DNA from: an uncultured Acidobacteriota bacterium
GTDB taxonomy: Bacteria > Acidobacteriota > CAIWXX01
Length of the DNA stretch: 64,000 nt
Direction: 5' to 3'
Assembly (NCBI GenBank): GCA_903916735.1
Contig: CAIWXX010000082.1
Location: 62,001 to 126,000, forward strand
Numbering within the stretch: position 1 is the first letter of the stretch; each line of letters starts with the position of its first letter. The translations under genes were made by a program, and so were the position numbers. Positions 39,628 through 51,266 of the stretch are shown here, in pieces. A model generated the notes under the pieces. That model searched no databases and was not told the DNA's origin. It was given only the letters and a program-made list of their open reading frames with translations.

Positions 39628-40020
39628 CTACTGCATCGTGGCATACCACCCGGTCACATTCTTCACGGACGTGGCCGCGCTGCCGGAGAAAGCTTCAAAC
39701 GTGCCGGCCAGCACATATTGGTTAGTTCCATTTGTCTTGAACAAATAGCCTGTGTAGATTTGGTAAGTTGTGGGATCGGTGGCTATGCATTTCCTCATGA
39801 ACATGATCTTCTGCGATGCGGTATTGTAGAATCCGAAGATGTCATTGCCATAGGCTGTCCCTGTCAGATTGCCTCCTGTGAACGTCGTAATAACCAGGTC
39901 CCCTTGGAAGCCATTGCCATTAATCTTCCACGTCCCCTTTGGGATGGGGCCCGCCAAGACGTTGCTGGACAGGATCGCCAGCACAACAAACGAAACCAGA
40001 AGTACCCATCTTATTTTCAT
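39628..40020 (-). CDS. Small secreted protein of unknown function
   Basis: 130 residues. MKIRWVLLVSFVVLAILSSN followed by VLAGP is a signal peptide with a cleavage site after Ala. The mature part is beta-rich (KGTWKINGNGFQGDLVITTF, GGNLTGTAYGNDIFGFYN, YVLAGTFEAF) and resembles small exported beta-barrel or lipocalin-like proteins only in general character. AAGGAG sits eight bases before the ATG. It follows the RCC1-like gene by 134 bases without its own copy of the array operator, so it may be co-transcribed with it. Confidence 0.75.
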   Translation of the reverse strand: MKIRWVLLVSFVVLAILSSNVLAGPIPKGTWKINGNGFQGDLVITTFTGGNLTGTAYGNDIFGFYNTASQKIMFMRKCIATDPTTYQIYTGYLFKTNGTNQYVLAGTFEAFSGSAATSVKNVTGWYATMQ

Positions 40021-40154: not shown

Positions 40155-40822
40155 TCACTTCACCTTGAACGTTAGCGTGTTGCTTGTCTGTCCGTTGACG
40201 AGCACACGAACGAAATAGGTCTTCCCGCTTTGGCACTTTTTCGGGATGTTGATGAGGAGCTTGTCCTTTGCCGACGATTTCACCGAGGCCAAGTATATCA
40301 GGAAATGGGGCAAGATGCCGGTCGAGAAATAAACCTTGTTCGGCAAGTTGGTCGTTGAAAAGCCGCGACCGCTGATCGTCGCCGGCTTGCCGGGCTTGCC
40401 TGTCTTGGACACGACACGCGAGATCCACGCGGCGTATTTTGACAAAGCGACTGAGAAGTCGTAGCCAGCTGTGATGGCCATGAAATCATTGCCGGCGGGG
40501 GCCTTGATCTCGCCGTGGAGGTTGGACCCCCAGCCCCAACCATGCTGCCGTCGGATTTCAACGCGAGATTGTGCCACCCATTCGCCGCGATAACAACGTA
40601 GTTGTTGCCGGCGGGAACGTTCACCTCGCCCTCGCCGTTCCATCCCCAGCCGACGATGTATCCAGGCAACCCACTGGTCACATTTTGCGAGATCTGCGGT
40701 TGGAGGATGTCATTCTCCAAAGACGCAGCCGTCCGACCGTTGGAGCGCACCGGGCTTAACAACAGAACCGCTGCGCACAACACGGTTGCGACGATGATGT
40801 CGGTCATCTTCGTAATTGCCAT
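40155..40822 (-). pseudogene. Secreted RCC1-repeat/IPT-like protein, frameshifted
   Basis: The start at 40822 has GAGGGG upstream and gives MAITKMTDIIVATVLCAAVL, a signal peptide. One RCC1-like unit (GWGWNGEGEVNVPAGNNYVV, IAANGWHNLALKSDGSMVG) is followed, in another frame, by the next unit (WGWGSNLHGEIKAPAGNDFM, AITAGYDFSVALS) and a C-terminal IPT/TIG-like domain ending SNTLTFKVK. The frame changes near 40526-40546, at a run of C residues (ACCCCCAGCCCCAACC). Either one base has been lost or gained in the genome, or this is a sequencing error in the C run. Its promoter carries the array operator. Confidence 0.75.
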
Positions 40823-40885: not shown

Positions 40886-40905
40886 CACTACTTACACAAG
40901 TCGTG
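40886..40905 (-). promoter_or_regulatory. Array operator copy 1, upstream of the RCC1-like gene
   Basis: CACTACTTACACAAGTCGTG: the two 8-base arms pair with one mismatch. On the minus strand a -10-like GATAAT begins 21 bases downstream of it, which puts the operator just upstream of the -35 position. Confidence 0.75.
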
Positions 40906-40976
40906 TTAATTCAGGCGGAGTCATCGGCGCCGGCACACAAGCACAAATTGCCGCCCAGGAATCAACAGCCGCTCGC

Positions 40977-41951
40977 TCATCGACTCGTCAAGACATTGTA
41001 CAGCAGCGTCTGATCGCCGGCGACGGCGAAGAGGTATAGCTTCCCATTGTAAACCGCGGCAGACACTGCGTACTTGGTCAAGGGTCCGGATAGGTTCTCC
41101 AAGGACCAATGTGTGAGCGATGGCTTACGATTGTATGTACAGAAGATGCTGTTGGTGAGTTTGTCCTTCACGAACACGTACTGTACGTTATTGTAGACAG
41201 TCGCGGCCGGGCTCACGTCGGTCAGGAGCCACGTGCTAAACAACCACCAGACACCTGCCCAGCCTCCCTCCTTGTAGTAGGTGTAGTAGATTTTGGAGTC
41301 ACCAACCCCTTTACCAAAGAGCCACATTTGCCCCTGCCAGACACAGCCACCCAAGGCGACGTCGCTGTAACCGGTCGGAAACACAGGGGCGGGTCCAGCT
41401 CGGTTGTTGTATGTATCGTCCAGCCAGTAACTAAGTAGATTGTCGGCAAAACCGTGCGTGAAGAGGTACACGGCTGGCCCATCGGCGATTGCGCACATGT
41501 GCTTGCTGGGAACATCAATGTCGGAACAATTGCTTTCCGACCAGTACCCATTGTCGTTCGTAAACCTATGGACGTTGCCATAGTAGCCTGTGTCAACGGG
41601 AAGAGTATAGACTTCGAGCTTGTTGTTACAGACGGCCCCGCAGAGCTCGACATCGGTGTGGAGGCCATATTCTAGGATACGGAACCCGCTCCATCCCGCG
41701 CTCGTGTAAGTATTCATGTAGATGGCATGGTCGTTGATGCCCCTCGCGAAAAGGTACAGCTTCCCCGAGTAGCTGATCGCAAAGGGTCCCGCGTCCGTGG
41801 TGCCACCGTTGGGAATCGTATGCCAACCGCTCCACCTTCCTGGTGATGATGCCGTGTCACTCGTTTGGCCAAGTGAGATGCTGGCGATGCCGAGCAACAG
41901 CAGGGCTGCACAGACAAGGATGCCCAGGAATTTCGTCCTTCCGCCGTTCAT
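40977..41951 (-). CDS. Secreted six-repeat propeller-like protein A
   Basis: The ATG at 41951 is chosen because AAAGGAGG lies nine bases upstream; the longer frame to 42074 runs through the promoter operator. 324 residues. MNGGRTKFLGILVCAALLLL begins a signal peptide. The mature protein is six units of about 45-50 residues, each with an aromatic-rich strand pattern like AISYSGKLYLFARGINDHAI and a closing W (for example unit 6, KYAVSAAVYNGKLYLFAVAG). This suggests a six-bladed beta-propeller. It is a clear paralogue of the next gene upstream (42270-43241), including the leader DNA. Binding of sugar or another ligand is only a guess. No catalytic motif is seen. Confidence 0.82.
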   Translation of the reverse strand: MNGGRTKFLGILVCAALLLLGIASISLGQTSDTASSPGRWSGWHTIPNGGTTDAGPFAISYSGKLYLFARGINDHAIYMNTYTSAGWSGFRILEYGLHTDVELCGAVCNNKLEVYTLPVDTGYYGNVHRFTNDNGYWSESNCSDIDVPSKHMCAIADGPAVYLFTHGFADNLLSYWLDDTYNNRAGPAPVFPTGYSDVALGGCVWQGQMWLFGKGVGDSKIYYTYYKEGGWAGVWWLFSTWLLTDVSPAATVYNNVQYVFVKDKLTNSIFCTYNRKPSLTHWSLENLSGPLTKYAVSAAVYNGKLYLFAVAGDQTLLYNVLTSR

Positions 41952-42068
41952 GTTGATATCCTCCTTTGGATGATGTGTGGTTACTGGCAACGATATTCGA
42001 GCGACTCTGTCATCATCATAGTATTTCTCATCTTCACCTGCAATTCTCGTAACAAACGCAACTCCTGT

Positions 42069-42088
42069 CACCACTTACACAAATAGTG
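42069..42088 (-). promoter_or_regulatory. Array operator copy 2, upstream of propeller A
   Basis: CACCACTTACACAAATAGTG: arms pair with two mismatches. It lies 118 bases from the start codon, exactly as copy 3 does for its gene. The DNA between operator and start is also conserved with that copy. Confidence 0.75.
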
Positions 42089-42269
42089 TTGATGCCGACG
42101 GGAATCCTGAGTCTGACACCGAGAATTGATCGCTGATGCAGACCCGCCGGCGTCGTGTTCACGCGGCGCAGGCCACCAGTACCACGTTGTGCGACAATCA
42201 ATCGAAGATGGTTTTTGCCTTCTCATCTAATGAGACGCCCAATCAACCTTTTTCTCCGGGCATGCGGAA

Positions 42270-43241
42270 TCACTTGCTGAAGACGCTATACCAGACGCTC
42301 TGGTCGCCGGCGATGGCGAAGAGATACAGCTTCCCGTTGTACACAGCAGCAGACAAGGCGTACTTGGTCAACATTCCCGGTACCACGGCACGAGCCCAGA
42401 AGTTGACTGACGGATCATGGGATCTCAAACTGTAGATGCGGTTGTTCATCTTCCCTTTCTCGAATATGAAAAGGCTATTTTTGTACACTGCCGTTGCGGC
42501 GCTTACGTCGGTCTTGACGCTATTGACGACTGGACCCCAGCTGTTCAGCCAACTCCCATTTCGGTTGAAGCTATAGAAGAGCGCGGAGTTATCACTATTT
42601 CTCTTATCAAAAAGCCACAACTGTCCCGCCCAGACACAGCCGTTGACGGCGGTATCGCTCGCGAAATCGCCGGGTACCTGATACCAATTATTATCGTGGC
42701 CATACATGTTGTCCCGCCAATAGATTTGTGTATCACAACATCCCTTGAGGAATAGCAAGGCGTCTTGCCCATACATGAGCGCGCACGTTGCGAAATTAGC
42801 ATATTGGGTGTCCGCGGAAAGTTCTCCAAACGAGCAGCTCCAATGACCATCGATGTAGCAGCCGATATTGAGGCGGTGAGTGACAGAGTTACTGGCATAG
42901 AGGTAAAGGTTGTTGCCATATGCGTTTCCGCCGACAGGGAGGGTGGTTGTTATGTCACCGACCACATCGCTGTACCCGCTCCATCCGTATGCATCAAAGG
43001 TATTCAGGTAAATACGGCCGTCCACCATTCCCTTGGTGAAGAGCCATAGCTTCCCGGAATAGCAGATCGCGAAGGGCGCCGCATCAGTTTTGCCAACCAT
43101 GGGGATTTTATGCCAGGTGCTCCACGTTCCTGATGGAAGTGCCCGGGATGCCGCTTGAACGAGTGAGATACCGGCGAGACCAAGCGAAAGCAGGGCCACA
43201 TAGAGAATCATGCCCAGGGATTTTGTTCTTCGGACGGTCAT
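42270..43241 (-). CDS. Secreted six-repeat propeller-like protein B
   Basis: 323 residues starting MTVRRTKSLGMILYVALLSL, a signal peptide, with AAAGGAGG nine bases before the ATG. Six units follow the same pattern as protein A (unit 1 AICYSGKLWLFTKGMVDGRI; unit 6 KYALSAAVYNGKLYLFAIAG), and the two proteins align end to end with many substitutions. Unit 3 contains a vicinal pair of cysteines (KGCCDTQIYW). The promoter carries the array operator. With protein A it forms a duplicated pair under one regulator; the role is probably extracellular binding, but no family can be named from sequence alone. Confidence 0.82.
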   Translation of the reverse strand: MTVRRTKSLGMILYVALLSLGLAGISLVQAASRALPSGTWSTWHKIPMVGKTDAAPFAICYSGKLWLFTKGMVDGRIYLNTFDAYGWSGYSDVVGDITTTLPVGGNAYGNNLYLYASNSVTHRLNIGCYIDGHWSCSFGELSADTQYANFATCALMYGQDALLFLKGCCDTQIYWRDNMYGHDNNWYQVPGDFASDTAVNGCVWAGQLWLFDKRNSDNSALFYSFNRNGSWLNSWGPVVNSVKTDVSAATAVYKNSLFIFEKGKMNNRIYSLRSHDPSVNFWARAVVPGMLTKYALSAAVYNGKLYLFAIAGDQSVWYSVFSK

Positions 43242-43358
43242 GTTGATATCCTCCTTTGGAAGATGTGTGGCTATTGGCGGCGATATTCAAGCGACTTTAA
43301 CGTCACCAAAGTAGCTCTAATCTTCACTTGTAATTCTCGTAACAAATGCAATTCCTGT

Positions 43359-43378
43359 CACCACTTACACAAGTAGTG
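43359..43378 (-). promoter_or_regulatory. Array operator copy 3, upstream of propeller B
   Basis: CACCACTTACACAAGTAGTG: 8-base arms with one mismatch around ACAC. It is 118 bases from the start codon of propeller B. A weak -10 (AATTAC) sits 24 bases downstream on the minus strand, the same spacing as the TATAAT after copy 4. Confidence 0.8.
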
Positions 43379-43471
43379 TTGATGCAGACGGAAATCACTG
43401 GTCTGGTAGCGAGTATTTTTCGCTGAGGCAGGCCTGCCGGCAGCTCGTTCACGCGGCAGGAACGACCGGGG

Positions 43472-44149
43472 TCACTTCACGATTCTCAAGCGCAGAGCCT
43501 TCGAAACAGCCTCCGACTTGGAGTGCACGTGTAGTTTCTCGTAGATGTGCTTGATGTGATAGTTGACGGTATTGAGGGAGACGCCGAGCTCTTCGGCGGC
43601 TGTTCTGTAGTTGTGCCCATCTACCAGCATCTTCAGCAATCGCGCCTCGTGCGGTGTCAGCTGATCCTCCATACGGCTCGGCGGAATCCCTTCCTTGAAC
43701 AGCTTCAGAACTCGCCGTGCCACGCCCGGCGACAGCGGCGCTCCACCGTCCCTCGCCTCTCTGATGTTCTCCAGAAGGCGCGCGGGCGGCGTCCCTTTCA
43801 GCAGATACCCGGATGCACCTGCACAAATTGCCGCGAAGATTCTCTCATCATCATCATAGACGGTGAGCATAAGAATCGCCAAGCCGGGATACCGCTCGGT
43901 CAAGATCCGGATTCCTTCGATGCCGGACATCCCAGGCAACCCGATGTCGACAAGCGCGACATCGGGGAGGTTCCCTCGCAATCCCTCCAACCCATCTTCC
44001 ATGCTCCTGTAAGTACCGGCGCATTTGTAGCCGGGAGTGCCGTCGATGAGCATTCGGAGGCCGTCTCGTATTCCCGCCATATCTTCGATGATCGTGACTT
44101 TGATCATCCCGTTGTCGCTCTTGCTATCGGTCTGAGGCGTTGCCGACAT
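43472..44149 (-). CDS. LuxR/NarL-type response regulator of the propeller array
   Basis: DNA-binding response regulator of about 225 residues. ATG 44149 is used; a TTG three codons earlier is too close to AAGGAG. The receiver covers about residues 14-130 with phospho-Asp68 in PDVALVDIGLPGMSG and the Lys in GYLLKGTPP. The C-terminal helix-turn-helix (EARLLKMLVDGHNYRTAAEE, LGVSLNTVNYHIKHIYEKLH) is the LuxR/NarL type. The gene follows the Reg_prop histidine kinase, the usual partner of such regulators. A perfect inverted repeat with a TATAAT lies in its own promoter, and three related sites precede secreted genes downstream, so it probably activates itself and the array. Confidence 0.93.
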   Translation of the reverse strand: MSATPQTDSKSDNGMIKVTIIEDMAGIRDGLRMLIDGTPGYKCAGTYRSMEDGLEGLRGNLPDVALVDIGLPGMSGIEGIRILTERYPGLAILMLTVYDDDERIFAAICAGASGYLLKGTPPARLLENIREARDGGAPLSPGVARRVLKLFKEGIPPSRMEDQLTPHEARLLKMLVDGHNYRTAAEELGVSLNTVNYHIKHIYEKLHVHSKSEAVSKALRLRIVK

Positions 44150-44169
44150 TTTTTCCAAAACTCCTTGGC

Positions 44170-44218
44170 ATTATACTAAGGCACAGCCACCGGCATGTCA
44201 CTACTTGTGTAAGTAGTG
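44170..44218 (-). promoter_or_regulatory. Array operator copy 4 (perfect) and promoter of the response regulator
   Basis: 44199-44218 reads CACTACTTGTGTAAGTAGTG, with perfectly complementary 8-base arms. On the minus strand TATAAT (44175-44170) follows 23 bases later, so the operator abuts the -35 position. That is the position of a class II activator. It separates the kinase gene from the regulator gene, giving the regulator its own promoter. Confidence 0.85.
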
Positions 44219-44241
44219 TCGTGATTAATTGCCTGGAAAAA

Positions 44242-47200
44242 CTACCTGGTCTTGGACCGACGCAATGGTATGCGCACGGTAATGTGCGTTCCTTCTCCCG
44301 GCCGCGACGCGAGAGTAAACAATCCGCCGAGCGCCTCGGTACGCGCGCGCATATTCTGCAACCCGTGTCCGGTGCCGGCGGACTGTGGATCGAATCCCCG
44401 GCCATTGTCCGTCAAGGCAATGTCCATCCACCGGCCTGCAACTCCCAAGGCGGCATCGACCTGTGTGCATTTCGAGTGGCGTGCGATGTTCGCGATAGCC
44501 TCTTTCCATATCAGATAAACCTCACGGCGTAGCAACGGATCGAGACTCAATTCTTCGACGCCCTCCGCGACGTTGAATCTGATGTGAATGTCGCTCGTCG
44601 CGAGCGTATCGGAAGCGAGGCGTCGCATTCGGTGGACCAAGTCTTCGACTCGGTCCTCTTTCGGATTGATCGACCAAACGATGTCACTCATGGACTCGAC
44701 CGTGTCGCGGGAGGTGTTGGCGATACGCGACAGCAACTCTGCGGAAGTCTGATCTCCTTCGCCGGTCCGTCGGCCGACCACTTCGCTCATGATCGCTATC
44801 CACGACAGATTCGCTCCAATGTCATCATGAAGGTCGGTCGCGATACGCGTCCTGACCCGTTCGACTTCAACATGCCGCCGCAGGCGCGAGCGGTAGATCG
44901 CATAGGCCACTGCGATCAGAGCCGCGCCTTCCAGCATGAGAAACCACCAGCGGCGCCATATCGGGGATAGAATGCGGAAGGAGATGGTGGCCGGCTGGCT
45001 GCTGACCGAGCCGTCCTCGGTGATTGCGCGAACCGAGAAGCGATATGTTCCAGAAGAGAGGTTCGTGTAGTTCACGGTGCGCAACGGCGTTTGTGGCCCC
45101 CACTCTTCTCCGGCGCCTTCCAGTTTGTATTGGTACCGGGCGACTCTGCCGGAGCCCAAGACAATGCCTAGCGAATCGATCTCCAGTTGGTTCTGATTGG
45201 GCTTGAGCACGAGTCCGGAGATCGCGGTCTCGCCGAGCTCGAACAGAGGGTGCGCCACGCCATTGATGCGAAGTCCTGTCACAAACGTGTGTGGGGCTGC
45301 GTACGATTGACTTGGCGGAGGGATGAACCGTGCGAGTCCGGTTGCAGTGGCGAACCAGAGCGCCCCCGAGCGATCTCTGCACGCACCGTAGAATGTGCCG
45401 CATGGCAGCCCATCGGCACTCGTGTAATGCTCGACGCCGCCGACTTCCGGATCAAGCACGTCTAAGCCGTGACCTGTTCCGAAGTACATCCTCCCATATG
45501 CGTCCTCGGTGATGCACCCCACCTCGTCGCTCAAGAGTCCTTCATGCGTCGTGTACCTTTTGATTCGCCCTGGACGGGCCGCTGCTGGGTCTTCGATGAG
45601 TCTGACGCCGTCATACCGGGAGGCGATCCAGAGCCGACCGAGATGATCGAGATGAAATGCAATCGTCTCATCGGGTATTCCATCCTTCGCTGAAAGGAGC
45701 AAGAACCGGCCGTCCCGATATCGCGCGACACCCCCAGCGTAGAACCCGATCCAGAGGCTCCCAGACCGGTCTTCACAGAATGCCGTAGGGGCTTCATGAG
45801 GAATTCCCTCAGAGTAGATGTGGAACCTGCCCGACCTGCGGTCCCATCGGTTCAGACACGATGAGTTGTATCCATACGTGCCGACCCAGATATCTCCTCG
45901 GGAGTCCTCGTAAACCTGAATAACGTGATCTTCGGACAGGCCGTCACGTGTCGTGTAGACCGCGAGCGGTGAATGTTCAGCCATGTCGCGCACCGGCATC
46001 CGTGCATATCGACAAAGACCCTTCCTTGTCGCGACCCACCACTCACCCATGTGATCTTGCAGGCAAATCCGATCCGTTCCTAAACCCGACCACTCGACAC
46101 TCTCCAGCAGCCTGGGACGTACGGTCGAGAAACGCTGCCCATCGAACTTTTGGATTACTATCCCATGAATGCCGGACTCGGCGCACAGCTCCCCTGCTCT
46201 GTCCTCGAATACCGAATGTATATCTTGCTGCGCGAGTCCATCCTGCTCGTCATATGTCACGAATCCGTGGAGCGGTATCTTCATGGCCCCGCCGGCCTCG
46301 GTTCCAATCCAGAGGTCGCCATCCTTGTCTTGGGCCAACGCCATGATTGATTCCTGAATCAGCCCATTTCGTTTCGTGTAGCGGATTATCAGCTCACTCT
46401 TTCCCTTGGACTCGAAGATGATCTGTGTGAGACCGCCGACGGCGCCAATCCACATATTTCCTTTCGGCGTCTCGATCAGTGAACTAATATCGCGTCCTTG
46501 AATGTCTCGGCCCGCCAAGTACCGGCGTGCCACCAGAATGCCGCCCGGGTGAGGGTATTCCGAGAGCCGGCAGAGCTCATTGTCCTTGCCGACCCATATG
46601 CGCCCCTGGCTATCTTCCATCAGGGTGGAGATGTAATCCGAGCTGAGGCTATCCTCCATCGTGAGTTTTTCGACGGTTCCTTCAGAACTGCGACGAAACA
46701 GACCGGCTGAGGTGCCAATCCACAAGAATCCTCGCCGATCCAGCAGGAGGGCTCCGACGGAGATCTGACCTGTTGAGGGAGACACAAGCGGCACACTCTG
46801 GAACTCCCAGTGGCCGCCTTTGAGATGACCACAATAGAGACCATTTTCAGTCCCGCACCAGAGATCGCTGTTTTCATCTTCGAGAAGGACGTTGAGGTCA
46901 CGCGAGGCATCGTCGGGACCAGTCCATTCCAATGTGAAGAACTTACTGGGGTCGGTGCGCTTCGACGGATCCGGGACGAATCGGCAGAGACCCCGGCTTG
47001 TCGCGACCCATCTGTCTCCGGCTTTGGTGATGAGCACATCCCATACTCTTTTGTCGGGAAGCCCCTGGTCGATGCCGTAGTTCGTGAATTGATAGCCATC
47101 GAACCGCGACAGTCCCTGCTCAGTGCAGAACCACACAAAGCCCAGCGGGTCCGGAACGATTTCATAGATCAGGTTCTGGGCCAGGCCGTCGGCCGTAGTG

Positions 47201-47298
47201 TATGTCCGCATCGACAGCCGCTCCGCCGGACTTTGTGAACAGAGGAAAATGAGCAAAGCGCTGGACAGCAGCCCCGAAGTAAAATGTTTCGCCACCAA
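44242..47298 (-). CDS. Propeller-type sensor histidine kinase (Reg_prop, Y_Y_Y, HisKA_3)
   Basis: 1018-residue membrane kinase. The start is TTG 47298 or GTG 47295; no clear ribosome-binding site. A signal peptide (SSALLIFLCSQSPAERLS) leads into about 14 Reg_prop repeats (units such as GDRWVATSRGLCRF and GRLWIASRYDGVRL) forming two periplasmic propellers. A Y_Y_Y domain (VARYQYKLEGAGEEWGP) and one transmembrane helix (WFLMLEGAALIAVAYAIY) follow. The dimerisation domain is HisKA_3 type with His824 in ATDLHDDIGANLSW. The ATPase has DNGRGFD and GHGLQNMRARTEALGG. The LuxR-type regulator 23 bases beyond the operator is the natural partner. Related sensors in Bacteroides detect glycan fragments; the ligand here is unknown. 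Confidence 0.93.
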   Translation of the reverse strand: MVAKHFTSGLLSSALLIFLCSQSPAERLSMRTYTTADGLAQNLIYEIVPDPLGFVWFCTEQGLSRFDGYQFTNYGIDQGLPDKRVWDVLITKAGDRWVATSRGLCRFVPDPSKRTDPSKFFTLEWTGPDDASRDLNVLLEDENSDLWCGTENGLYCGHLKGGHWEFQSVPLVSPSTGQISVGALLLDRRGFLWIGTSAGLFRRSSEGTVEKLTMEDSLSSDYISTLMEDSQGRIWVGKDNELCRLSEYPHPGGILVARRYLAGRDIQGRDISSLIETPKGNMWIGAVGGLTQIIFESKGKSELIIRYTKRNGLIQESIMALAQDKDGDLWIGTEAGGAMKIPLHGFVTYDEQDGLAQQDIHSVFEDRAGELCAESGIHGIVIQKFDGQRFSTVRPRLLESVEWSGLGTDRICLQDHMGEWWVATRKGLCRYARMPVRDMAEHSPLAVYTTRDGLSEDHVIQVYEDSRGDIWVGTYGYNSSCLNRWDRRSGRFHIYSEGIPHEAPTAFCEDRSGSLWIGFYAGGVARYRDGRFLLLSAKDGIPDETIAFHLDHLGRLWIASRYDGVRLIEDPAAARPGRIKRYTTHEGLLSDEVGCITEDAYGRMYFGTGHGLDVLDPEVGGVEHYTSADGLPCGTFYGACRDRSGALWFATATGLARFIPPPSQSYAAPHTFVTGLRINGVAHPLFELGETAISGLVLKPNQNQLEIDSLGIVLGSGRVARYQYKLEGAGEEWGPQTPLRTVNYTNLSSGTYRFSVRAITEDGSVSSQPATISFRILSPIWRRWWFLMLEGAALIAVAYAIYRSRLRRHVEVERVRTRIATDLHDDIGANLSWIAIMSEVVGRRTGEGDQTSAELLSRIANTSRDTVESMSDIVWSINPKEDRVEDLVHRMRRLASDTLATSDIHIRFNVAEGVEELSLDPLLRREVYLIWKEAIANIARHSKCTQVDAALGVAGRWMDIALTDNGRGFDPQSAGTGHGLQNMRARTEALGGLFTLASRPGEGTHITVRIPLRRSKTR

Positions 47299-47624: not shown

Positions 47625-50600
47625 ATGAGAGATCCTGTATGCAGGAAGGCGATCAGGGGCTTCACTATGGCCCTCGCCCTCCTACTCGGCCACCCCTCAG
47701 CGCCGGCCCAGTCTGTGCAGTATGGAAAGCTGACTGGAGAGGTGACATTCGAAACCGGTGAGCCGCTCCCGGATGTCAATATTCAAATCGCCAGCGCCGC
47801 GTTGATCTCGCGAACACGGTCGACTTCCACAACCTCAAACGGGATGTATGTTTTCATTAATCTGCCGGTAGGAACATACCAATTGACGGCGACGCGAGCT
47901 GGGCTGAAGACTGTTATTCGTGAGAACATCATGATCTCTGCCGGGGCCGTCATGTCAGTGGACGTCGGAATGATGCTGGGCGAAGTCGCCGAGAGCGTTA
48001 TCGTCACCGCGGCGGGCCCGGTCGTGGACAGCGAGACATCGACAGTCAGCACGAAATTCGACGAACCGATGCTCCGGAGGCTGCCCACCAGCCGCGATGC
48101 ATTCTATGACCTCGCACTCATGGCTCCTGGGACAACCGGTTCCGCCAAAGTCTCCTCGTGGCTGCCGGGGCCATCGGCATACGGCGGAAGCGCCAACGAA
48201 GACTCCTTCCTGGTGAACGGCATCAACCTGACTGATCCGCGGGGCGGTGCCTTTGGATCACTCGTCAACGTCAACTATGATTCCGTGCAGGAAGTGCATG
48301 TTCTGGCCCTGGGCTCGAAAGCGGAATTCGGCAGCGCCACCGGGTTGACTGTGGACGTCCTGACCAAATCGGGCGGCAACCAATTCAGCGGCAATCTCAG
48401 CTATTATGTGCAACCGCTCAAGCCGGCTGATAACGTCCCTGGCGCCGGTGAGAATCTTGGTAGAGACTGGTTATATCTTGAGCCCGGGTCTCGACCGGAT
48501 GACAGAACCATCAAGGATTCGGAGCTGACGGCAACTCTGGGAGGCCCCATCATCAAGGACAAGGTCTGGTTCTACACAGCCTACGATCACATCAATGAGG
48601 ATCGCAAGGTTTCGCTCTGGCCTCTGCCTTTGCAGCGAACCAACCGCTATTATGATTTCAAAATCACAGCTCAGCCAACACCGAATGGCCATGCGTGGGT
48701 GGCGTGCCACATCGAGAGAAACCGCCTTGAGCATGATACATGGGGGTACGATCTTCCTTGGGATACATCCCTGAATTATGGCGCGACTCAAAACAACAAC
48801 ACGATTTCATCCGAGTGGCAATGGGTGCAGAACGACAGGAATATGGTCTCAGCCAAGTACCTTGGGTACTGGACGGACTCGAACCCCCTGCTTCCAGCGG
48901 ATGCGCCATCGAATCCCGGATACCTCAACTTTTGGAAGTGGCGGGTTTTTGCTGTGAATGGCCACTTCCCTTATAACCAGGCACGTGATTCCACTCGGCA
49001 TACGATCCAGGCGGATTTCTCGCACTACGCGGAGAATTTCCTCGGTGAGCAGGACATAAAATTCGGCGTGCAGTATACGGCCGGCCACGGCAACCAGACC
49101 GGCGACTATTTCGCAGGGTACGGTAACTTTGCTTATCCTCTCCGGTATAATCAGGACATCAGCTATTGCAAGAATGCATATGGCGACACCGGGATGCAGT
49201 GGTATGTGGATCAAAGATATCTGCCGCCATTCAAAACCGTGCGCAGGTATCGCCAGGCAGGGGTGTTTTGCGACGATCAGTGGACTCTCTCAAAGCGCCT
49301 GACTCTCAATCTGGGCCTGCGCTACGACAATATGACCTGCGGCTATGGCAAGGGCGAGGTCTACGAAATGCCGGCCAGTCCTCACGATACCCCGGCCTCG
49401 CTCAGTGTCATTCGCGATCGTCAAGGGACTGGAAACATATTCGACTTCAACACGCTGTCTCCGCGCCTCGGCGCAACATATTTGCCGACAGATGATAGGA
49501 AGACCGCGCTCAGAGCCAACATCGGGCGGTACTACATGCCGATAGGACTCGACAATCTGGGCCATTACGGCCCCGACATGCCATTGATGCGGACTCATCG
49601 ACTCTACTTCAACGTGCCATGGGAACTGGTCGATACGAATCATAATAACTATGTGGATCCCGACGAAGTCACAGCGGCGGCCAGGTTGCTGAAGGATTTC
49701 AAGCCGTATGACGGCACGTGGTTGGACCCGACAGACCTATCATGGCAGTGCAAGGTGGCGGCCGGCACAAAGCCGGAGTTCACGGACCTGATCACATTCA
49801 ACGTCGAACGGGAGATCATGAAAGACCTCTCACTCTCGGCCACGATCATTCATAAGCGAACCGGTAACACACTGGCCAATTGGCCGATCAACCGGCAGAC
49901 AGGAAAGCCTTTTGAATATGAGCGCGTCACGTACACGACGAAATATGGACAGACAGTGGACCTCTATAGCATCCTCATGAAGGATTACAACGCCGACGGC
50001 CGGGTCGACGATCAGGACGTTAATTGGATCAGAACGAACAGAGACTACGAAGTTCGAAATCTGCCTCAGAATATTGACGGCATCGACCCTGAGCAAACCT
50101 ACAAAGGGCTGCAATTGGCCGTGAAGAAACGGTACTCTGATCGATGGCAGATGCTATTGTCGTTTCTGTACTCGGCGTCCAACGGCGTCGCCAATCGCAA
50201 CCGGCACCAGGACTGGTACGTCACCGGGTCGATGGTCATGGATGAGCGATGGATCGAAAGCCCGAATCAACTTATTGACAACATACAAGGGCCGCTGCCG
50301 TTCACACCAAAGTACCAGTTCAAGATCAGCGGTTCTTACCAGATCCCGAAGGCCGAGATCGGCGTCGGCTGGCGTTTCAGTTACGACTCGGGACGCCCCG
50401 TCTGGTGGTTGGAGGATGTCCCGCCGGTGCTACGATGGCCCGATCCGTCAGGGGTCGTGGTCGATACGGTGCCATGGCTCGTCATCGTTGCCGTTGATCC
50501 CAAAAATCCTCGCTATCTACCTGCAACGAAGACACTCGATCTGCATCTGGACCGCATTTTCGATCTCGGCAGGTACAATACTCTCCGCCTGTCGCTGGAC

Positions 50601-50723
50601 TGTTTCAATGCGCTCAATGCCAAGACCATTACCAACGTGGATCCTTATCAGCACCCTGGTCAGGTCACCGGTGTCCTCAACCCATCGCGCCGTCTTCGGG
50701 TAGGAATCTCGTACGAGTTTTAG
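47625..50723 (+). CDS. Oar-like TonB-dependent outer-membrane receptor 1
   Basis: 1032 residues with a signal peptide (ALALLLGHPSAPAQS). A carboxypeptidase-regulatory-like domain (YGKLTGEVTFETGEPLPDVN, then YVFINLPVGTYQLTATRAGL), a plug domain (VDSETSTVSTKFDEPMLRRL; NGINLTDPRGG) and a large beta-barrel ending in VGISYEF with the terminal aromatic of outer-membrane proteins follow. Two segments in the barrel look like calcium loops: DTNHNNYVDPDE at 49632-49667 and DYNADGRVDDQD at 49984-50019. It imports or binds an unknown large ligand. It is divergent from the sensor kinase. GGAGGAG supports the start. No TonB/ExbB genes are in the window. Confidence 0.92.
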   Translation: MRDPVCRKAIRGFTMALALLLGHPSAPAQSVQYGKLTGEVTFETGEPLPDVNIQIASAALISRTRSTSTTSNGMYVFINLPVGTYQLTATRAGLKTVIRENIMISAGAVMSVDVGMMLGEVAESVIVTAAGPVVDSETSTVSTKFDEPMLRRLPTSRDAFYDLALMAPGTTGSAKVSSWLPGPSAYGGSANEDSFLVNGINLTDPRGGAFGSLVNVNYDSVQEVHVLALGSKAEFGSATGLTVDVLTKSGGNQFSGNLSYYVQPLKPADNVPGAGENLGRDWLYLEPGSRPDDRTIKDSELTATLGGPIIKDKVWFYTAYDHINEDRKVSLWPLPLQRTNRYYDFKITAQPTPNGHAWVACHIERNRLEHDTWGYDLPWDTSLNYGATQNNNTISSEWQWVQNDRNMVSAKYLGYWTDSNPLLPADAPSNPGYLNFWKWRVFAVNGHFPYNQARDSTRHTIQADFSHYAENFLGEQDIKFGVQYTAGHGNQTGDYFAGYGNFAYPLRYNQDISYCKNAYGDTGMQWYVDQRYLPPFKTVRRYRQAGVFCDDQWTLSKRLTLNLGLRYDNMTCGYGKGEVYEMPASPHDTPASLSVIRDRQGTGNIFDFNTLSPRLGATYLPTDDRKTALRANIGRYYMPIGLDNLGHYGPDMPLMRTHRLYFNVPWELVDTNHNNYVDPDEVTAAARLLKDFKPYDGTWLDPTDLSWQCKVAAGTKPEFTDLITFNVEREIMKDLSLSATIIHKRTGNTLANWPINRQTGKPFEYERVTYTTKYGQTVDLYSILMKDYNADGRVDDQDVNWIRTNRDYEVRNLPQNIDGIDPEQTYKGLQLAVKKRYSDRWQMLLSFLYSASNGVANRNRHQDWYVTGSMVMDERWIESPNQLIDNIQGPLPFTPKYQFKISGSYQIPKAEIGVGWRFSYDSGRPVWWLEDVPPVLRWPDPSGVVVDTVPWLVIVAVDPKNPRYLPATKTLDLHLDRIFDLGRYNTLRLSLDCFNALNAKTITNVDPYQHPGQVTGVLNPSRRLRVGISYEF

Positions 50724-50867: not shown

Positions 50868-51266
50868 ATGATGAACCAGATTAAGCGGCTTCGAGATCAT
50901 GGAGTTCTGGTGACGCCGCAACGCATTGCCATCGCAGAATACATACTGAAAACCAAGGCCCATCCGCATGCCGATGCAGTTTGGGTGCATGTACGGCGAC
51001 GACACCCGACGATCTCACGAGCCACCGTCTACAACACCCTCAATCTTTTCGTCGAAAAGGGGTTGGTCAAGGCTCAACCCATCACCGGAGGCGCTGTCAT
51101 TTTCGACCCGAATGTCCGGCGGCACCACCACTTCATCGATGAAAAGTCCGGCATCATTTATGATCTCCCCTGGGAGGCGGTGAAGGTGACGGCCGAGCGG
51201 GGACTCAGTGGGTTTGAGGTGAGGGAGTACCAGGTCGTGTTGCGAGGGCGAAGGCGTAGGCGTTAA
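50868..51266 (+). CDS. Fur-family regulator, PerR-like
   Basis: 132 residues. The winged helix (VTPQRIAIAEYILKTKAHPH, SRATVYNTLNLFVEKGLV) is typical for Fur/PerR. The metal site is partly visible in VRRHHHFIDEKSGIIYDLPW, where His-rich and Asp positions bind the sensing metal. The C-terminal CxxC zinc motifs of many PerR proteins are absent, and the protein ends in an Arg-rich stretch (RGRRRRR). A PerR-type palindrome precedes the adjoining catalase remnant, which supports a role in peroxide response. There is no ribosome-binding site before the ATG; see the promoter entry. Confidence 0.88.
   Translation: MMNQIKRLRDHGVLVTPQRIAIAEYILKTKAHPHADAVWVHVRRRHPTISRATVYNTLNLFVEKGLVKAQPITGGAVIFDPNVRRHHHFIDEKSGIIYDLPWEAVKVTAERGLSGFEVREYQVVLRGRRRRR

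Follow-up and report, generated by a model that had tools for sequence, protein, structure and literature searches.

The locus examined here raises the question of whether a propeller-type sensor kinase, the response regulator (RR) encoded beside it and a group of secreted proteins are linked into a dedicated circuit by a shared 20-bp inverted repeat, as an earlier note on this DNA had proposed. The genes and candidate operator sites concerned are listed below; "the window" denotes the whole stretch of 64,000 nucleotides analysed.

44242..47298, minus strand: sensor histidine kinase with signal peptide, Reg_prop repeats (8 scored stretches), Y_Y_Y, transmembrane segment, HisKA_3 and HATPase_c (Pfam)
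43472..44149, minus strand: NarL/LuxR-type RR with Response_reg and GerE; recognition helix NTVNYHIKHIYEKL
42270..43241, minus strand: propeller B, secreted, six repeats, PLL/AAL-lectin-like propeller model
40977..41951, minus strand: propeller A, secreted, 43% identical to B
40155..40822, minus strand: RCC1-like secreted protein with C-terminal IPT/TIG-like domain, frameshift-interrupted
44199..44218, no strand assigned: operator 1, CACTACTTACACAAGTAGTG, perfect arms, in the RR promoter
43359..43378, no strand assigned: operator 2, sense CACTACTTGTGTAAGTGGTG, in the propeller B promoter
42069..42088, no strand assigned: operator 3, sense CACTATTTGTGTAAGTGGTG, in the propeller A promoter, within a region duplicated with operator 2
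40886..40905, no strand assigned: operator 4, sense CACGACTTGTGTAAGTAGTG, in the promoter of the RCC1/TIG-like gene, with GATAAT at 40860-40865

Genes and operator sites of the window

The kinase was matched by the Pfam models Reg_prop (9.2e-50) and Y_Y_Y (1.1e-10), and its double-propeller sensor is predicted to be periplasmic, so that the proposed reading of an extracellular signal by this kinase is better worded as periplasmic sensing. The RR scored over the cut-offs of both Response_reg (2.3e-19) and GerE (1.4e-13), which places it in the NarL/FixJ (LuxR-type) class, and its acidic pair E22/D23, D68 and K118 are invariant throughout its subfamily. When compared with the NCBIfam equivalogs for named NarL-type regulators (NarL, NarP, UhpA, GacA, MctR and MadR), it passed none, the best being MctR with 122 bits at a cut-off of 300. 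An Oar-like TonB-dependent receptor gene (window 47625-50723) diverges from the kinase gene and the gene behind this receptor (50868-51266) resembles a Fur gene on visual inspection. The intergenic region between kinase and receptor contained no operator.

The four copies of the inverted repeat start at 40886, 42069, 43359 and 44199 and carry 1, 2, 1 and 0 mismatches, respectively, to CACTACTT-N4-AAGTAGTG, exactly as the earlier note had given them; 0.04 copies were expected from dinucleotide shuffles of the window, none of which reached four. In the genome-wide scan that had been suggested there, no fifth place with up to two mismatches was detected (5,367,960 bases, 183 contigs), so that the absence of a further copy, first noticed for the window, extends to the genome, and the sites are confined to this locus at that threshold (5.37 Mb). 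Three mismatches were found at 7 further places. The looser pattern CTACYT-N4-ARGTRG occurred at six places in 5.37 Mb, of which two lie in the window locus, two at the paralogous RR locus on contig C42 and two elsewhere. Because propellers A and B share a duplicated upstream region that extends well past the operator, operators 2 and 3 are not independent, and the four sites amount to about three independent occurrences. A chance origin of the four sites was rejected on the basis of the window shuffles, the genome-wide scan and the matrix test on RRs of other genomes described below. Another site of the same genome (C76:13656) was rejected as an operator, as it is not ahead of any gene, and a perfect site in G129 (L071), a phylum member from an unrelated family, which has no such regulator alongside, fits chance over the ~1.7 Gb scanned.

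Neither propeller A nor propeller B gave a significant Pfam match. Propeller A most likely starts with the ATG at 41951, after AAAGGAGG, rather than with a GTG within the operator. An AlphaFold model of propeller B (pLDDT 76.6, five-sequence alignment) was compared with the PDB using Foldseek, and the best matches were Photorhabdus PLL/PHL and fungal AAL-type lectins (E ~1e-11, probability 1.00, TM ~0.6). The protein models as a candidate PLL/AAL-lectin-like propeller with possible sugar binding, its top structural matches being fucose-binding lectins; it shares 18-22% identity with these lectins and has six repeats, whereas PLL has seven blades. A contig search with propeller B as query yielded no relative, and the propellers that occur in the phylum are distant ones. 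A third propeller-gene fragment of 45 residues, 51% identical to B and apparently a remnant, lies on contig C97 of the same genome (L019:1501-1635), and at L013:556-2283 one polypeptide combines a distant propeller of the A/B kind with a papain-like domain of the cysteine peptidases (Peptidase_C70/C39).

The claim that the RCC1-like gene is one of four operator-preceded genes was borne out as far as the operator is concerned, but the gene is split by a frameshift and occupies two frames (40298-40822 and 40155-40643), which may reflect decay or an assembly error. Its TIG-like part is 38-49% identical to the C-terminal parts of secreted proteins encoded at paralogous RR loci of the same genome. 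A frameshift also seems to affect the SBBP/TIG-like target of the paralogous locus on C42 (L053). Behind the RCC1-like gene, a 130-aa secreted protein is encoded (window 39628-40020); it has no operator and is possibly co-transcribed.

Promoter geometry and mode of control

Three of the operators adjoin promoter-like sequences of the same build:

44173..44201, minus strand: GTGACA-17-TAGTAT (RR), 3-bp overlap with operator 1, conserved -10 offset
43333..43361, minus strand: GTGACA-17-GAGAAT (propeller B), promoter pattern
42043..42071, minus strand: GTGACA-17-GAGAAT (propeller A), promoter pattern

The corresponding pattern of the RCC1-like gene is GTGATT-17-GATAAT. On the gene strand, the first three bases of GTGACA are the final three bases of the operator, and the RR operator, previously described as merely abutting the -35 position, therefore overlaps this element by 3 bp. 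The perfect TATAAT noted for the RR promoter is present but sits 3 bp past the place that the -10 element keeps at the other promoters and in relatives, the conserved -10 element here being TAGTAT. Among 46 sites from the window and its relatives, strong -10 matches were located at offset 20 in 21 cases and at offset 21 in 13, with 0-5 cases at each other offset. Since the distance to the -10 element is fixed, the operator centre would lie at about -42.5, assuming a normal transcription start. These promoters thus show the geometry of class II promoters, with the operator over the -35 element and its centre near -42.

The likely arrangement appears to be a class II activator circuit that is autoregulated and confined to its locus, with several paralogous ones in the same genome. 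The propeller (Reg_prop/Y_Y_Y) kinase would phosphorylate the adjoining NarL-type RR, a dimer of which would bind the inverted repeat over the -35 element both at its own gene and at the three secreted-protein genes and, positioned at about -42.5, would act as a class II activator. Autoactivation of the RR would then result in positive feedback with a small, dedicated output. The periplasmic signal is perhaps a glycan, which, given the ligands of the sensors of Bacteroides hybrid two-component systems (HTCS) and the lectin-like propeller targets, is a fair guess at most.

As GTGACA is already a fair -35 element (5/6 match, 17-bp spacing to the -10 element) and is overlapped by the operator, the same RR might instead bind these sites as a repressor that blocks the -35 element until it is released by the signal. 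We consider this unlikely: the centre at about -42.5 is kept within 1-2 bp across relatives, which repression would not require, and many relatives have a poor -35 element (e.g. GTTACG) while operator and -10 element persist. The position at -42.5 thus appears to be a better fit for activation than for repression.

Conservation of regulator, operator and targets

By sequence comparison, the RR belongs to a subfamily that spans the Acidobacteriota. Its paralogs in the same genome are C135:8343 (64% identity), C42 (61%) and C122, C99, C95 and C135:2415 (46-55%), and a scan of named genomes returned 80 RR loci, mostly from Acidobacteriota, with some from Ignavibacteria, Bacteroidota and Calditrichota. 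Of the 95 RR loci for which sufficient sequence was available, 83 encode a homolog of the window kinase just upstream on the same strand. Rather than being the single odd locus implied at the outset, the window locus thus belongs to a family found throughout the phylum, of which this genome carries several paralogous circuits. One contig of this genome (L052, C135) encodes two subfamily RRs of differing helix type, a propeller kinase and secreted proteins with TIG domains. At L058 (G009:C35), the ORFs before and after a related RR encode 2721 aa and 2014 aa, respectively, and no kinase homolog was found within 3.6 kb upstream. The Bacteroidota-labelled loci L149, L150 and L141 contain a tandem pair of subfamily RRs; at L149 and L150, operator-like sites lie ahead of the second RR and of a TonB receptor, which at L149 is accompanied by SusD.

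The window-derived pattern CACTAC-N8-GTAGTG was present upstream of 9 of 103 RRs and within 700 bp downstream of 14 of 103, in both cases ranking first among 60 letter permutations, whose median count was 1. A matrix trained on own-genome sites only was then applied to 95 RRs from other genomes. The density of matches (per 100 kb) was 118 within 200 bp upstream and 82 within 300 bp downstream, compared with 3.7 on the kinase side, 4.9 in the RR gene and 8.9 at 600-4000 bp downstream. Upstream matches marked 22/95 RRs and downstream matches 23/95, while 40 position-permuted matrices reached at most 5 and 7, respectively. No match was obtained for 19 NarL-type RRs outside the subfamily, a small control. 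Among relatives that keep kinase and RR, which the earlier note had suggested searching, sites therefore recur at the same two places, namely the RR promoter and the promoter of the next gene. Examples are TACTACCTGTTTGGGTGGGG ahead of the RR and CACTACCTGAACAGGTGGTG ahead of the next gene at L080, ATCTACCTGTTCAGGTGGTG (RR) and ATCCACCTGTTCAGGTGGTG (next gene) at L092, and CCCTACCTACGTAGGTGGTG and TACTACCTAAATAGGTGGTG at the own-genome paralog C42. Since the same switch adjoins related RRs across the phylum, the control family to which the window locus belongs is widespread.

Genes that follow the downstream sites or adjoin these RRs encode a 1710-aa Kelch protein (L084), proteins with TIG/Flg_new repeats (L092), Ig-like/FG-GAP/PKD (L093) and NHL/PKD/Ig domains (L062), a further Kelch protein (L060) and collagen-like (L145), PEP-CTERM (L122), SBBP/DUF7948/TIG (L055) and TIG proteins (L054); at the Bacteroidota-type loci (L149, L150), a TonB receptor with SusD is among them. 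A hydrophobic N-terminus was predicted for 28 of 60 first co-directional downstream genes (26% of background genes), a modest excess. The targets of the family circuits are mostly secreted repeat or propeller proteins.

The type of operator is associated with the recognition helix of the adjacent RR. A CACTAC-type site accompanied 36 of 70 RRs with the helix N-T-[VI]-x-[FY]-H and 1 of 30 with other residues (Fisher p=1e-6); at a matched identity of 50-57%, the counts were 7/21 and 1/22. About half of the [FY]H regulators had no site at the threshold used. De novo palindrome searches that left out the window returned CTACCT-N4-AGGTAG as the top pattern at [FY]H loci (27/71, shuffles at most 11), and the top pattern at loci with other helices was CGCATG-N2-CATGCG (16/30, shuffles at most 8). 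The latter is followed by a -10 element at the matching place (offset peak 24 past the 14-bp core) and is exemplified by L056:8301-8314, with others at L114, L129, L130, L136, L148 and L054. Own-genome paralogs of the second helix type carry the CGCATG operator as well, ahead of the RR at C95 and between the RR and the gene of a TIG-domain protein at C122. A receiver-domain tree required 7 helix changes, 4 of them on well-supported branches, and the operator followed the helix in ~2.7 of 4 independent pairs and went against it in almost none; with only four such changes, this tree test cannot reach significance. The residue that follows the helix K/R, either H or N, showed too weak a link with the outer operator bases, and this idea was dropped.

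These associations also bear on the identity of the regulator. Binding by the adjacent RR is a prediction, and a regulator encoded elsewhere could in principle occupy the sites, the neighbouring RR being coincidental. This is highly improbable, as own-genome sites are restricted to loci of this RR subfamily, and both the presence and the type of operator vary with the helix of the adjacent RR, even among paralogs of one genome. That the palindromes are RNA hairpins of the preceding gene (terminators or mRNA-end structures) is scarcely credible: every site is intergenic, shortly past a stop codon, and some arm mismatches are G-U pairs on the sense strand, but T runs after the sites are absent, the half-site sequence itself is conserved beyond mere complementarity, the distance to the downstream -10 element is fixed, and the sites associate with the helix of the adjacent RR; a terminator hairpin was rejected on spacing, sequence conservation and absent T runs.

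Sites, spacing, conservation and helix association were all computed directly. The proposal of a dedicated kinase/RR/secreted-protein circuit draws support from the locus-confined motif, its recurrence in relatives and its dependence on the helix, and would extend to the family, in which each circuit would control secreted or outer-membrane proteins encoded alongside, with an operator type that follows the recognition helix. With moderate confidence, we propose a large acidobacterial family of plug-in circuits, shared with some Bacteroidota-related lineages. Each would use a propeller kinase with a NarL-type RR to control adjacent secreted propeller or repeat proteins, and helix changes would switch the operator and insulate circuits of the same genome, while the promoter geometry stays fixed.

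Relation to known systems

For the giant sensor kinases widespread in uncultured Acidobacteriota, regulator, operator and targets can now be given together, and many secreted repeat and propeller proteins that had lacked an explanation would come under a predictable switch. Natural paralogous RRs whose two operator types go with just a few residues of the recognition helix also make the insulation of parallel two-component circuits testable with purified proteins and short DNA.

Propeller/Y_Y_Y sensors, NarL-type RRs and the control of adjacent genes by HTCS are known. In the open-access papers searched, no description was found of a system that, like the present one, combines a propeller kinase and a NarL-type RR as separate proteins with an operator family proper to them, predicted autoregulation, targets among secreted repeat proteins and operator types that go with the recognition helix. 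NarXL, UhpBA and LiaSR share with it a HisKA_3 kinase, a receiver-GerE RR and an inverted-repeat operator, but here the sensor is a double propeller and the RR falls below each curated NCBIfam equivalog cut-off. To our knowledge, CTACCT-N4-AGGTAG matches no site of the NarL/FixJ family (NarL 7-2-7, lux box, UvrY box).

ReeS of Clostridium perfringens is likewise a sensor kinase related to the propeller/Y_Y_Y type, and the proteins that it switches on, sialidases, are secreted; it is an orphan kinase for which no cognate regulator or operator is known (PMC3762733). The HTCS of Bacteroides polysaccharide utilisation loci share the large periplasmic Reg_prop and Y_Y_Y sensor, recognise oligosaccharides with it and also control surface or secreted-protein genes that are usually adjacent (PMC3243724). 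The Bacteroidota-type relatives, whose next genes encode TonB receptors and SusD, are HTCS-like in this respect. In HTCS, kinase, receiver and DNA-binding domain form one polypeptide, whereas kinase and RR are separate genes here; the output is a NarL-type receiver-GerE protein with a palindrome at about -42.5 and an autoregulatory site, and the acidobacterial targets are mostly repeat or propeller proteins, not glycan enzymes.
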